Source: Candidatus Rokuibacteriota bacterium | GTDB taxonomy: Bacteria; Methylomirabilota; Methylomirabilia; Rokubacteriales; CSP1-6 | Direction of reading: 5' to 3' | Assembly: GCA_003220495.1 (NCBI GenBank) | Contig: QHSP01000019.1 | Location: 1 to 44,147 of the forward strand | DNA length: 44,147 nt | Part shown: in pieces, positions 28,077 through 31,934 of the stretch | How the letters are laid out: every line of letters begins with the position of its first letter | Position numbering within the stretch: the first letter of the stretch is position 1 | Program-made: the position numbers and the translations under genes | The notes under the pieces: generated by a model | Told to the model about the DNA's origin: nothing | The model's database searches: none | The model's input: the letters and a program-made list of their open reading frames with translations, nothing else

Positions 28077-29159
28077 ATGGACGGCGGACACGGTGGCGGG
28101 CGCAAAGCGGAGCGACCGAAGTTGAACATGACGCAGGCGTTCAGAGAGCTCGTCCAGATCGGGATCACCTTGACCAGCGAGCAAGACCTCGGAACCCTCC
28201 TCGAACGCATCCTCACCGAGGCCCGCCGGTTCACGCGCGCCGAGGCCGGGACTCTGTTCCTCCGCGAGGGTGACCAGCTCCGCTTCGCGGTCGTCCAGAA
28301 CGATAAGCTCGCGCGCGAGCTCGGTCAGGAGGAGATGCGGCGTCGCCTCCAGTCCGACCCACTGAGCCTTCGCGAGCTCAGCCTCGCCGGTCACGTCGCG
28401 CTCACGGGCGACATCCTCAACCTCCACGACACGTACATGATTCCGCCGGATCGGCCCTATTCGCACGATCCGCGCATGGACGCGCGACTGAACTACCGCA
28501 CCCAATCTATTCTGGTCGTCCCGCTCCAGGATCCGGCGAACAACATCCTCGGCGTGCTGGAGCTCATCAACGCGCTCGAGCGGGGACGCGTCGTGCCCTT
28601 CGACTCCCAGTACGAGGGCCTCGTGCGCTCGCTGGCGTCGCAGGCCGCCGTCGCGCTCCGCAACGCGCGGCTGGAAGATCTCTCCTTCAAGGACGCGTTG
28701 ACGGATGTCTACAACCGCCGGTACTTCACGATCCGCATGGAAGAAGAGTTCAAGCGTCACTGCCGTTTCGGTGAGCCGCTCTCGCTCGCCCTCATGGACC
28801 TCGACCACTTCAAGGAGGTCAACGACCGGTTTGGGCATCGGGCCGGCGACCAGGCGTTGCGGGACGTCGCCCAGCTCCTGGTGAAGCATTCGCGGAGCTT
28901 CAGCATCGTGACCCGGTACGGCGGCGACGAGTTCGCGATCATCCTCGTGAACACCGCGAAGACGGGCGGCCTCACCTACGCCGAGCGCATCCGGGCCGTG
29001 GTCGAGCAGCACCCCTTCCCGCACGGTCCGGTCACCGTCAGCCTCGGCATCGCCAGCCTCCCGGAGAACGCCACCACCGTCGACGACCTGATCGTCGCGG
29101 CCGACCAGGCGCTCTACGACGCCAAGCGTCTGGGCCGGAATCGAGTCGCCGTTCAGTGA
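28077..29159 (+). CDS. GAF-GGDEF diguanylate cyclase
   Basis: 360 residues from the ATG at 28077; an ATG at 28128 (MTQAFRELVQ) is an alternative that would remove a basic 17-residue leader. Residues about 25-205 form a GAF domain (RRFTRAEAGTLFLREGDQLRF near residue 50, quoted in part) joined by the signalling helix NARLEDLSFKDALTDVYNRR to a GGDEF domain. The active site is intact: MDLDHFKEVND and YGGDEF (281-286). The inhibitory RxxD site upstream reads RSFS, so product feedback is probably absent. It would make cyclic di-GMP in response to a small ligand. The second copy overlaps by 4 bases. Confidence 0.92.
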   Translation: MDGGHGGGRKAERPKLNMTQAFRELVQIGITLTSEQDLGTLLERILTEARRFTRAEAGTLFLREGDQLRFAVVQNDKLARELGQEEMRRRLQSDPLSLRELSLAGHVALTGDILNLHDTYMIPPDRPYSHDPRMDARLNYRTQSILVVPLQDPANNILGVLELINALERGRVVPFDSQYEGLVRSLASQAAVALRNARLEDLSFKDALTDVYNRRYFTIRMEEEFKRHCRFGEPLSLALMDLDHFKEVNDRFGHRAGDQALRDVAQLLVKHSRSFSIVTRYGGDEFAIILVNTAKTGGLTYAERIRAVVEQHPFPHGPVTVSLGIASLPENATTVDDLIVAADQALYDAKRLGRNRVAVQ

Positions 29160-30214
29160 GTCCGCAGACGATGGCCGATCGCGGACAGCTCCTGGAGGAG
29201 CTCCTCGAGATCGGTATCGCTCTCACCGTCGAGCGTGATCTGTACGCGCTGCTCGAGCGCGTCCTGGAAACGGCGCGGCGGTTCACCCGGGCCGAGGCCG
29301 GCACCTTGTTCCTGCGCGAAGGCGATCACCTCCGCTTCGCCGTGGTCCAGAACGACTTCCTCCAGCGCAAGCTGGGCACGGTCGCGATGCAGCAACGCCT
29401 CCAGTCCGAGCCGCTTCGGCTGACCGAGCCGAGCCTGGCCGGCCACGTCGCCCAGACGGGCGAGATCGTCAACGTGGCCGATGCGTACGCCATCGGGGTG
29501 CACGAGACCCGGGCGCTCAACCGGCGCTTCGACGCCGCCAGCGAGTACTCGACGCGCTCGGTGCTGGCGGTCCCGATGCACGACCTGGCCGGGAGCAACG
29601 TCGGCGTGCTCGAGCTGTTGAACGCTCTCGACGAATCGGGCGCGATCGTGCCGTTCGACCCCGAGGACGAGAAGGTGATCCGGGCGCTCGCCTCCCAGGC
29701 GGCCGTCGCCATCCGCAACGCGCGGCTCGAGGACCTCTCGTTCAAGGACGTCTCGACCGAGCTCTACAACCGCCGCTACTTCGCGCTGCGGATCGACGAA
29801 GAGGTCAAGCGTCACACTCGCTTCGGCCACCCGCTCTCTCTCGTCGTCCTGAACATCGACCACTTCAAGCAGCTCAGCGCGGCCCACGGCCCCGCCGCCG
29901 GCGACGAGGTCTTGCGCGTGGTGGCGCGGCTGCTCGTCAAGCACTCCCGGAGCTTCACGATCATCGCCCGGCTCGACGGCGACGGCTTCGCGGCGCTGCT
30001 CGCGAACACGCCCAAGGCGGGCGCCGTCACCTACTCCCAGCGAATCCGCGGGGTCATCGCGGCGCATCCGTTCGCAGCCGGGGCGATCACCGCCAGCTTC
30101 GGCGTCGCCGGTCTCCCGGCCGATGCGGCGTCGGCCGACGACCTGATCGCCGCCGCCCAGCGCGCCCTGACCGACGCCAAGCGCCTCGGCCGTAACCGCG
30201 TCACCGCGCTCTAG
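29156..30214 (+). CDS. GAF-GGDEF protein with degenerate GGDEF motif
   Basis: 352 residues from the GTG at 29156, which overlaps the first copy's stop (GTGA); an ATG at 29171 is possible. The architecture and sequence closely follow the first copy (RRFTRAEAGTLFLREGD, NARLEDLSFKD), so the pair arose by tandem duplication. The active-site motif reads LDGDGF (273-278) in place of YGGDEF, and the metal-binding loop reads LNIDHFKQLSA in place of MDLDHFKEVND. Cyclase activity should be lost. It may act as a dimer partner, a GTP or cyclic di-GMP sensor, or a GAF-only receptor. Signature residues elsewhere (DAKRLGRNR) persist, so it is not a random pseudogene. Confidence 0.9.
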   Translation: MSPQTMADRGQLLEELLEIGIALTVERDLYALLERVLETARRFTRAEAGTLFLREGDHLRFAVVQNDFLQRKLGTVAMQQRLQSEPLRLTEPSLAGHVAQTGEIVNVADAYAIGVHETRALNRRFDAASEYSTRSVLAVPMHDLAGSNVGVLELLNALDESGAIVPFDPEDEKVIRALASQAAVAIRNARLEDLSFKDVSTELYNRRYFALRIDEEVKRHTRFGHPLSLVVLNIDHFKQLSAAHGPAAGDEVLRVVARLLVKHSRSFTIIARLDGDGFAALLANTPKAGAVTYSQRIRGVIAAHPFAAGAITASFGVAGLPADAASADDLIAAAQRALTDAKRLGRNRVTAL

Positions 30215-30303
30215 GCTCCTCGCCTCCGCCAAGGTCCCGGCGCATGGCTTGACTTGAGTCGGGATCGTGTGTCATTAGGTTCCGCATCGACGAGGAGGAG
30301 TCC

Positions 30304-30984
30304 ATGAGCAAGAGCCCGTTCCGCGCCCGCCTCGAAGCCGCCGTCATCGCCCGCCACAGCCGCCTGAATCCCTTCACGGAGAAGTGGGTCAAGGGCGAGC
30401 TGAATCGCGCCCAGCTCGGCGCGTGGGCGGCCCAGCACTACCAGTACGTCTCGCAGTTCCCGCGCTGGTGCGCCACCGTGTACGGGCAGTGTCCGGATCC
30501 GGATGCCCGGGATTTCCTGCTCGAGAACATCATCGAGGAAGAGTCCGGCACCAAACACGTCGACCTCCTGATCCGCTTCGCCGAAGCGTGCGGCGTCTCC
30601 CGCGCCGAGGTCGAGTCGAAGCAGCAGCTGCCGACGACCCGCGGGCTCACCGCGTGGTGCTTCGAGATGTCGCACCAGACGTTCCACGTCGCGGCCGCGG
30701 GCCTGCTCGTCGGGCTCGAGTCTCAGGTGCCCGGCATCTACCAGCGGAACCTGCCGCCGCTCAAGACGCACTACGGCTTCACGGACCACGAAGTGGAGTT
30801 CTTCGCGATCCACATCGAGGCGGACGAAGTCCACGGCGAGCGGGGCTATCAGATCGTCGAGCGGCACTGCACGACCCAAGAGCGTCAGGCGGAGGCGATC
30901 GAAGCGGTCCGCCAGGCGACAGAGATGCGCTGGCAGTACATGACCGGCCTCCATCGCGCCTTCGTCGCGAAGGAGGACCTGTGA
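30304..30984 (+). CDS. Haem-oxygenase-like diiron oxidase (HDO/PqqC/TenA-like superfamily)
   Basis: 226 residues, all-helical, ATG after GAGGAGGAG. Six probable metal ligands can be placed: Glu78 and His85 (EEESGTKH), Glu139 (VGLES), His170, Asp174 and His177 (HIEADEVH). Spacings of 7, 54, 31, 4 and 3 nearly equal those of chlamydial CADD (Glu81, His88, Glu142, His174, Asp178, His181). That argues for a non-haem diiron oxygenase over thiaminase TenA or cofactor-less PqqC. The start of the Rieske gene overlaps its stop (GTGA). A TTGACT at 30249-30254 is a candidate -35 box. Substrate unknown; HDO enzymes fragment or oxidise amino acids and fatty acids. Confidence 0.85.
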   Translation: MSKSPFRARLEAAVIARHSRLNPFTEKWVKGELNRAQLGAWAAQHYQYVSQFPRWCATVYGQCPDPDARDFLLENIIEEESGTKHVDLLIRFAEACGVSRAEVESKQQLPTTRGLTAWCFEMSHQTFHVAAAGLLVGLESQVPGIYQRNLPPLKTHYGFTDHEVEFFAIHIEADEVHGERGYQIVERHCTTQERQAEAIEAVRQATEMRWQYMTGLHRAFVAKEDL

Positions 30985-31289
30985 GTCGGCGCCGAGTCGC
31001 CCGCCTGGAGGATCTCCCGGCGGGCCAGCCGACCCTGGTCGAGGCCGACGGCGCGCGGGTCGTGCTCTCGCGGGTCAACGACGCCGTCTTCGCGTGCAGC
31101 GACGAGTGCGCCCACCAGGGCGGTCCGCTCAGCGAGGGTCGGCTCGCGGGGACCCGGTTGACCTGCCCGTGGCACGGCTGGATGTTCGACCTCAAGTCGG
31201 GCACGTGTCTCATGCCGTCGCGCGGCGGTCCGGTCGTGACGTATCCGGTGACGATCGAAGCCGGCGAGGTCTGGATCGAGGTCCCCTGA
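30981..31289 (+). CDS. Rieske [2Fe-2S] ferredoxin
   Basis: 102 residues from the GTG at 30981, with GGAGG 7 bases upstream, inside the 3' end of the oxidase gene. The cluster ligands are Cys44-x-His46 (ECAHQGGPLSEG) and Cys63-x2-His66 (LTCPWHGWMFD), in the bacterial ferredoxin-type Rieske fold. It has no membrane anchor or oxygenase domain, so it should be a soluble electron carrier. Translational coupling to the diiron protein makes that enzyme its likely electron acceptor. A reductase is not encoded nearby. The GlcG/HbpS gene starts 2 bases after its stop. Confidence 0.93.
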   Translation: MSRRRVARLEDLPAGQPTLVEADGARVVLSRVNDAVFACSDECAHQGGPLSEGRLAGTRLTCPWHGWMFDLKSGTCLMPSRGGPVVTYPVTIEAGEVWIEVP

Positions 31290-31290
31290 C

Positions 31291-31713
31291 ATGGCGCTCA
31301 CGCGGGCGCGGGCGCGCGAGAGCGTCGAGCGCGGCTTCGCCAAGGCGCAGGCGCTCGGGTTCAAGGTCGCGATCGCCGTCGTGGACGACGCGGGCCACCT
31401 CGTCGTGTGCGACCGCATGGACGGCGCGCTCTGGGTGACGCCCGAGATCGCCCGCGCCAAGGCCAACGCCGCCGCCGCCTTTCACGCCACGACGCTCGAT
31501 CTCGAAGAGCGATTCACGAAGCGTCAGCTCTTCGCCGACAACGTCGCAACCCTGGGCGACTATCAGTTCGTCTTCGGCAGGGGCGCCGTCCCGCTCGTCG
31601 AAGACGGCCGGATCGTCGGCGCCGTCGGCGTGAGCGGCGCCGTCCCCGCGGACAACGATCATACGATCGCGGATGAGGCGGCGGGCCATCCCACTCTTCC
31701 CACGAGCCACTAG
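31291..31713 (+). CDS. GlcG/HbpS family haem-binding-like protein
   Basis: 140 residues with the DUF336 pattern: ESVERGFAKAQALGFKVAIAVVDDAGHLVVCDRMDGA (quoted only as landmark positions 11-47) and a Gly-rich end around VEDGRIVGAVGVSGA. HbpS of Streptomyces binds haem and iron and is a redox sensor component; GlcG sits in glycolate operons and PduO-C-like relatives in cobalamin clusters. The usual C-terminal Asp/Ala-rich stretch is present, followed by His-Pro. It is third in the unit with the diiron protein and Rieske ferredoxin. A 19-bp tandem duplication covers its stop codon. Confidence 0.85.
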   Translation: MALTRARARESVERGFAKAQALGFKVAIAVVDDAGHLVVCDRMDGALWVTPEIARAKANAAAAFHATTLDLEERFTKRQLFADNVATLGDYQFVFGRGAVPLVEDGRIVGAVGVSGAVPADNDHTIADEAAGHPTLPTSH

Positions 31714-31733
31714 ACTTCCCACGAGCCACTAGA
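31696..31733 (+). repeat. 19-bp perfect tandem duplication over a stop codon
   Basis: cttcccacgagccactaga occurs at 31696-31714 and immediately again at 31715-31733. The TAG stop of the GlcG/HbpS gene (31711-31713) lies in the first copy; the second copy is in the spacer. Because the unit is not a multiple of three, reading frame beyond the stop would change. Confidence 0.95.
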
Positions 31734-31775: not shown

Positions 31776-31934
31776 ATGCAAGTCGAGGTCGAGGTGCATC
31801 GGAATGAGCTCGGCGAGTGGGTCGCCGTCGCCGTGGCCTGGAACGTCCAGGCCACCGGTCACACTGAGAACGAGGCGCTCGCCCGGATGATGCAAGCGCT
31901 GGCGCGGCACTTGAAGACTTCGACCCAGAAGTGA
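31776..31934 (+). CDS. Small HicB-like protein coupled to a CoA transferase
   Basis: 52 residues. The pattern EVHRNELGEWVAVAVAWNVQ then ATGHTENEALARMMQALARH is a strand-strand-strand-helix arrangement like the truncated RNase H-like fold of HicB/DUF1902 proteins. The stop overlaps the start of the CaiB/BaiF gene (GTGA), which supports translation. A weak AAGG lies about 13 bases before the ATG. No HicA toxin gene is near, so a toxin-antitoxin role is unlikely. It may be a leader ORF that controls translation of the CoA transferase, or a small regulator. Confidence 0.65.
   Translation: MQVEVEVHRNELGEWVAVAVAWNVQATGHTENEALARMMQALARHLKTSTQK

Follow-up and report, generated by a model that had tools for sequence, protein, structure and literature searches.

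The window, a stretch of 44,147 nucleotides from a soil bacterium with a Rokubacteria-type genome, holds a tight operon of three adjacent open reading frames on the plus strand. The first (30304-30984) encodes a haem-oxygenase-like dimetal oxidase (HDO) of 226 aa (PF14518, 117 bits against a cut-off of 28.9), the second (30981-31289) a Rieske [2Fe-2S] ferredoxin of 102 aa with a GTG start (PF00355, 65.8 bits), and the third (31291-31713) a DUF336 protein of 140 aa with an ATG start, HbpS-like and of the EfgA family (PF03928, 107.5 bits against a cut-off of 25). Directly 5' of the HDO ATG and on the same strand, a purine-rich leader, GAGGAGGAGTCC (30292-30303), can be read off the sequence and is a probable ribosome-binding site. 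The Rieske gene overlaps the HDO stop, as the original prediction had described; the overlap, from the GTG at 30981, measures 4 nt, and the identical overlap is found in many relatives. The gap before the DUF336 gene, previously given as 2 bases, is 1 base, with the Rieske stop codon at 31287-31289 and the next ATG at 31291. A consensus scan around the operon found neither a sigma-70-type promoter nor an intrinsic terminator.

Directly upstream of the operon (28077-30214) lie two tandem GAF-GGDEF genes that are about 60% identical to each other; some Rokubacteria relatives carry three in a row. At the other end, a perfect tandem direct repeat of 19 nt, CTTCCCACGAGCCACTAGA, present twice at 31696-31733, spans and duplicates the DUF336 stop codon. 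A CoA-transferase gene follows downstream. Between it and the DUF336 gene is a 52-aa open reading frame (31776-31934), HicB-type-like, that overlaps the GTG start of the CoA-transferase gene and has no NCBIfam match.

The AlphaFold2 model of the HDO (pLDDT 94.6) is closest to CADD (1rcw), with a VIA Z of 29.0, an rmsd of 1.4 Å over 211 residues and a Foldseek TM of 0.88. It next resembles PqqC, UndA and HrmI, and BesC and PolF match as well. By alignment, the predicted metal ligands are Glu79, His85, Glu139, His170, Asp174 and His177, and these six columns are invariant in 35 family members as well as in CADD and PabS. The original prediction had proposed the same CADD-like ligand set except for the first carboxylate, which it placed at Glu78. 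Column 79 is invariant in all alignments, CADD and PabS included, and column 78 is Asp in both of these proteins. In most orthologues outside Rokubacteria the loop from the EEE motif to the His is one residue longer, and the spacing from the second Glu to the His is then 7, as in CADD; the Rokubacteria proteins are one residue shorter before His85. Given the invariance of column 79 and this shortened loop, we replaced Glu78 with Glu79 as the first carboxylate, and the near-exact CADD spacing counted from Glu78 is a coincidence of a one-residue loop deletion. With Glu79 in first place, homologues do keep all six ligands. The identification as an HDO that conserves its dimetal ligands and is partnered in the operon by a Rieske protein and DUF336 is thus supported; its predicted dimetal site, probably di-iron, would react with O2.

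Purifying selection acts on all three genes. The NG86 dN/dS values against 14 relatives are 0.03-0.34 for the HDO and 0.07-0.25 for the DUF336 protein, the slowest of the trio, and 0.23-0.56 for the Rieske protein, the fastest. In the 59 relatives searched, close orthologues of the HDO, at 75-97% identity, turned up within its own family and order and in none of the class-mates examined; the named genomes that carry them are Candidatus Rokuibacteriota/Rokubacteria, one of them labelled Methylomirabilota. Among the named Rokubacteria loci with enough downstream sequence, the HDO-DUF336 pair is present in all 29 and the complete trio in 26. The remaining three lack the Rieske gene, and a search of their vicinity gave no Fe-S gene of another type. 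The genes flanking the trio differ from genus to genus, and the trio evidently stays together, since its adjacency persists while its surroundings change. Purifying selection on all three genes and the recurrence of their order in other genomes argue that the arrangement is not due to chance. The host genome encodes other HDO, Rieske and DUF336 paralogues, which form no second trio in the stretches examined.

The HDO also has orthologues of about 46-52% identity in Bacilli, Actinomycetota, and Alpha- and Betaproteobacteria, which extends the clade to four phyla, Rokubacteria included; carriers are Aneurinibacillus, other Bacilli, Actinomadura, Pseudonocardia, Asaia, Caballeronia and Cupriavidus. 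They were gathered by a scan of genome contigs, genome searches and a plasmid search, and are undercounted because the contig scan used two exact peptide patterns. In a tree, Rokubacteria, Actinomycetota, Betaproteobacteria and Alphaproteobacteria each group together and apart from CADD/PabS, with a deeper order that lacks resolution. Every lineage has a DUF336 gene near the HDO gene, and most have an Fe-S donor. The Bacilli cluster runs transporter, creatininase-family amidohydrolase, HDO, aldehyde dehydrogenase and DUF336, accompanied by a GntR regulator, often by an aspartate dehydrogenase, and in most cases by a plant-type [2Fe-2S] (Fer2) ferredoxin; near the Aneurinibacillus HDO no Fe-S donor gene was found. 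In Actinomycetota the order is HDO, Rieske and an HcaD/AndAa-like FAD reductase, followed by a second Rieske gene and with DUF336 close to the HDO where the contig reaches. A gamma-glutamyltransferase is present in most of these loci and an aldehyde dehydrogenase or Rid-family gene in several, and at one locus (L127) a Fer2 ferredoxin gene accompanies the Rieske gene next to the HDO.

Betaproteobacteria have HDO, aldehyde dehydrogenase, DUF336 and a BenC-like reductase, plus small ferredoxins; two of their three loci include an ornithine-cyclodeaminase-family gene with a sub-threshold match to the iminosuccinate reductase BhcD. In Alphaproteobacteria (Asaia and one relative) the HDO gene is single or doubled and stands with DUF336 and a Rieske protein of divergent sequence. 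Outside Rokubacteria, aldehyde dehydrogenase, transporter and GntR regulator are thus frequent neighbours, the aldehyde dehydrogenase adjoining the HDO in Bacilli, Betaproteobacteria and some Actinomycetota, whereas the Rokubacteria clusters are without the adjacent aldehyde dehydrogenase and transporter of the other phyla. The constant pair is HDO and DUF336, with an Fe-S donor in most lineages whose type changes. The operon of HDO, Rieske and DUF336 that had been read as a three-part oxidase therefore does recur, and what does not stand is the Rieske protein as a defining part, since it is missing from three Rokubacteria loci and swapped in other phyla.

Several further features of the wider clade were noted. 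In the Asaia bogorensis MAG (L090, 6001-7510), two HDO copies stand in tandem next to a single DUF336 gene and a Rieske protein of divergent sequence, possibly as a two-subunit form. The TRN family (L087-L097 and L137-L151), membrane-protein-like and about 480 aa long, is a frequent HDO neighbour in Bacilli, Actinomycetota and Betaproteobacteria. It matches no NCBIfam model and, above cut-off, no Pfam family, and is possibly the substrate transporter of the clade. The two Cupriavidus loci encode a protein of about 100 aa beside the ferredoxin of the HDO cluster (L150, 8391-8708; L151, 8324-8626), the L150 copy of which matches nothing in Pfam or NCBIfam; at the corresponding place Caballeronia (L149) carries a hypothetical gene. 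For more distant HDOs (L129-L136, about 37-40% identity), DUF336 was found in none of the eight loci, which argues that the DUF336 link belongs to the orthologue clade. A Rieske-like match was found in only one of them (L135, 5403-6386), directly after an HDO of about 29% identity and on the same strand, so that a second HDO lineage may also have acquired a Rieske partner.

The best solved match of the DUF336 protein, by both sequence and fold, is the formaldehyde sensor EfgA (6bws). Residues K57, S115 and D123 of the operon protein align with K57, S114 and D121, the residues with which EfgA binds formaldehyde (PMC8153426), and these pocket residues are invariant in the 24 HDO-linked DUF336 copies compared. 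Since DUF336 proteins conserve these residues widely, and not EfgA alone (PMC8153426), their presence argues only weakly for aldehyde binding. The earlier description of this gene product as a haem- or cofactor-binding GlcG/HbpS protein is right as to the family (PF03928); haem binding is a family label only, and the nearest structure is EfgA. The operon protein has its DUF336 domain in common with EfgA, HbpS, GlcG, PduO-C and NahX and, unlike all of these, is tied to an HDO operon. The Rokubacteria copies are only 25-35% identical to the HDO-linked DUF336 proteins of other phyla, and another DUF336 copy in the host genome is nearer to those of Bacilli than is the copy in the operon. On these two grounds, DUF336 may have joined the HDO on several occasions, or its copies may be non-orthologous between lineages.

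The Rieske protein has both the PF00355 domain and the motif C43-x-H45 ... C62-x2-H65. Its nearest NCBIfam models are the dioxygenase ferredoxins HcaC and AndAb, both below cut-off, and its closest solved chain is 2i7f, the ferredoxin component of a dioxygenase; T4MOC is also a relative. It is the only redox gene adjoining the HDO, and the operon contains no reductase gene. BPH-type ferredoxin reductases (PF14759) are encoded at two loci of the host genome and could feed the Rieske protein, which would in turn pass electrons to the HDO. The swapping of donors between lineages is the pattern to be expected of an HDO that depends on one-electron reduction without requiring any particular protein to supply it.

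We therefore considered what the operon might do, and put at slightly better than even the chance that it encodes a small multi-turnover multicomponent oxygenase, in which the Rieske protein re-reduces the dimetal HDO and the DUF336 protein handles a reactive carbonyl in an EfgA-like manner. Electrons would pass from NAD(P)H through a cellular flavin reductase to the Rieske protein (or ferredoxin) and on to the dimetal site of the HDO. Because the site would be re-reduced in this way, the HDO would turn over repeatedly and not be spent like CADD. The reduced site would react with O2 to give an oxidised product; an aldehyde would probably be set free in the process and pass to an aldehyde dehydrogenase where the gene is present, while the DUF336 protein would bind or sense the small reactive carbonyl as EfgA does. 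Electron transfer from donor to HDO, multi-turnover oxygenation, a catabolic role, an aldehyde product and the role of DUF336 are thus what we infer for this system. Catabolism is suggested by the aldehyde dehydrogenase, transporters and GntR regulators that often join HDO clusters. The imine-handling neighbours (aspartate dehydrogenase, ornithine-cyclodeaminase family and Rid family) hint that the substrate may be a nitrogen-containing compound.

The Rokubacteria neighbours (CoA-transferase, amidohydrolase and an FMN enzyme) were discarded as substrate clues because they change between genera. Homarine catabolism and histamine/imidazoleacetate catabolism were considered as the pathway of the wider cluster and set aside, no supporting text having been found in the open-access literature. 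Nor did that literature yield a described pathway for the combination of HDO, Rieske and DUF336, in agreement with the original prediction, and relatives of the operon, found in four phyla, point towards a pathway not yet described, probably a degradative one. More tentatively, and at somewhat less than even chances, it may belong to a widespread undescribed class of haem-oxygenase-fold catabolic oxygenases, in which an NAD(P)H-dependent reductase would feed an interchangeable Fe-S donor, Rieske or plant-type ferredoxin, and this a di-iron HDO, with DUF336 capturing or sensing the aldehyde.

The resemblance to CADD raises the question of a p-aminobenzoate synthase. CADD builds p-aminobenzoate by consuming two residues of the enzyme itself, Tyr27 and Lys152 (PMC11965152, PMC13108848). 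At these positions the HDO has Thr25 (Thr, Ser or Ala in 34 other family members) and Asn149 (Asn, Ser, Gln or Thr in the same 34). As both sacrificed residues are absent, the HDO is not a CADD-type synthase, an identity that we rejected. A non-canonical self-sacrificing synthase of the CADD/PabS kind, with the Rieske protein priming the dimetal site a single time, is in our judgement highly improbable. CADD and PabS (1rcw, 8va9, 9pj4) are the closest solved relatives of the HDO by sequence and fold and have in common with it the fold and the E-H-E-H-D-H ligand set; the host genome (98% complete) has TrpE only, on contig C29 (L166), a separate PabB not being found at E <= 0.001. Against this, the HDO lacks the CADD relay tyrosines in addition to Tyr27 and Lys152, and reaches 142.5 bits with the NCBIfam CADD model TIGR04305, below the cut-off of 200. 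Unlike CADD and PabS, it has an electron donor and DUF336 as neighbours with no folate genes near, and its clusters carry catabolic and transport genes. PqqC has a related fold (VIA Z 27) and 21% identity; it is metal-independent, unlike the predicted dimetal HDO, and no PQQ genes were recognised beside the HDO. The HDO scores 78.4 bits with the NCBIfam PqqC model TIGR02111, far under the cut-off of 240, and we rejected this identity.

The HDO could instead be a biosynthetic oxidase of the UndA, BesC, SznF or MboA kind that makes a specialised metabolite, with the Rieske protein as a redox partner like MboB. Characterised HDOs other than p-aminobenzoate synthases act mostly in specialised biosynthesis (PMC13108848), and MboAB demonstrates that an HDO can require a dedicated Fe-S/flavin partner (PMC13185094). 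The neighbourhoods examined, however, contained no recognisable genes for synthetases, ligases or carrier proteins, and the aldehyde dehydrogenase, transporters, GntR regulators, and amidohydrolases or gamma-glutamyltransferase fit catabolism better. Very strong conservation between the genera of Rokubacteria accords with a role in core metabolism. We therefore consider biosynthesis unlikely, while giving it real weight. It is more doubtful still that the trio is adjacent by history only, the Rieske protein serving another oxygenase and the HDO using general reductants or none. Such a history would accord with the loci that keep HDO and DUF336 without a Rieske gene, with the faster evolution of the Rieske protein and with the several further small Rieske proteins that the host genome encodes, but the adjacency outlasts changes in the surrounding genes, and in other lineages the HDO orthologue has different Fe-S donors as neighbours.

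The reading that we favour, a multicomponent oxygenase re-reduced by its Rieske protein, can be compared with two known systems. MboA/MboB (2026) is a mangotoxin acetylenase that, according to its authors, may be the first dedicated pair of HDO and redox partner to have been characterised (PMC13185094), so that such a partner can no longer be called unprecedented. Apart from MboAB, we found no characterised HDO with its own redox partner in the open-access literature. As in our operon, an Fe-S redox partner is encoded alongside the HDO; MboB, however, is a single NAD(P)H reductase polypeptide with flavin and Fe2S2, whereas the operon donor is a separate small Rieske ferredoxin, and MboA acts on a peptide in biosynthesis, with no DUF336 gene mentioned in the accessible part of the report (PMC13185094). 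The Betaproteobacteria have a BenC-like reductase in the HDO cluster, in contrast to the Rieske protein alone in the Rokubacteria operon. In oxygenases of the toluene 4-monooxygenase kind, a di-iron oxygenase with a ferritin-like fold and several subunits is fed by a Rieske ferredoxin and an FAD reductase. The Actinomycetota version of the HDO cluster resembles this arrangement in having Rieske and FAD reductase genes clustered with the oxygenase. The oxygenase of the operon differs in being a single protein with a haem-oxygenase fold.

A 2026 review states that none of the HDOs so far studied depends on a protein effector (PMC13108848). If the proposed reading is true, HDO chemistry would extend from single-turnover or biosynthetic roles to multi-turnover catabolism, and DUF336, a family with few known functions, would gain a testable enzyme partner. 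It would also give access, across four phyla, to a degradation pathway whose substrate probably contains nitrogen. With Cupriavidus metallidurans CH34 and similar cultured carriers, the questions around HDO and DUF336 are accessible to deletion and growth tests.
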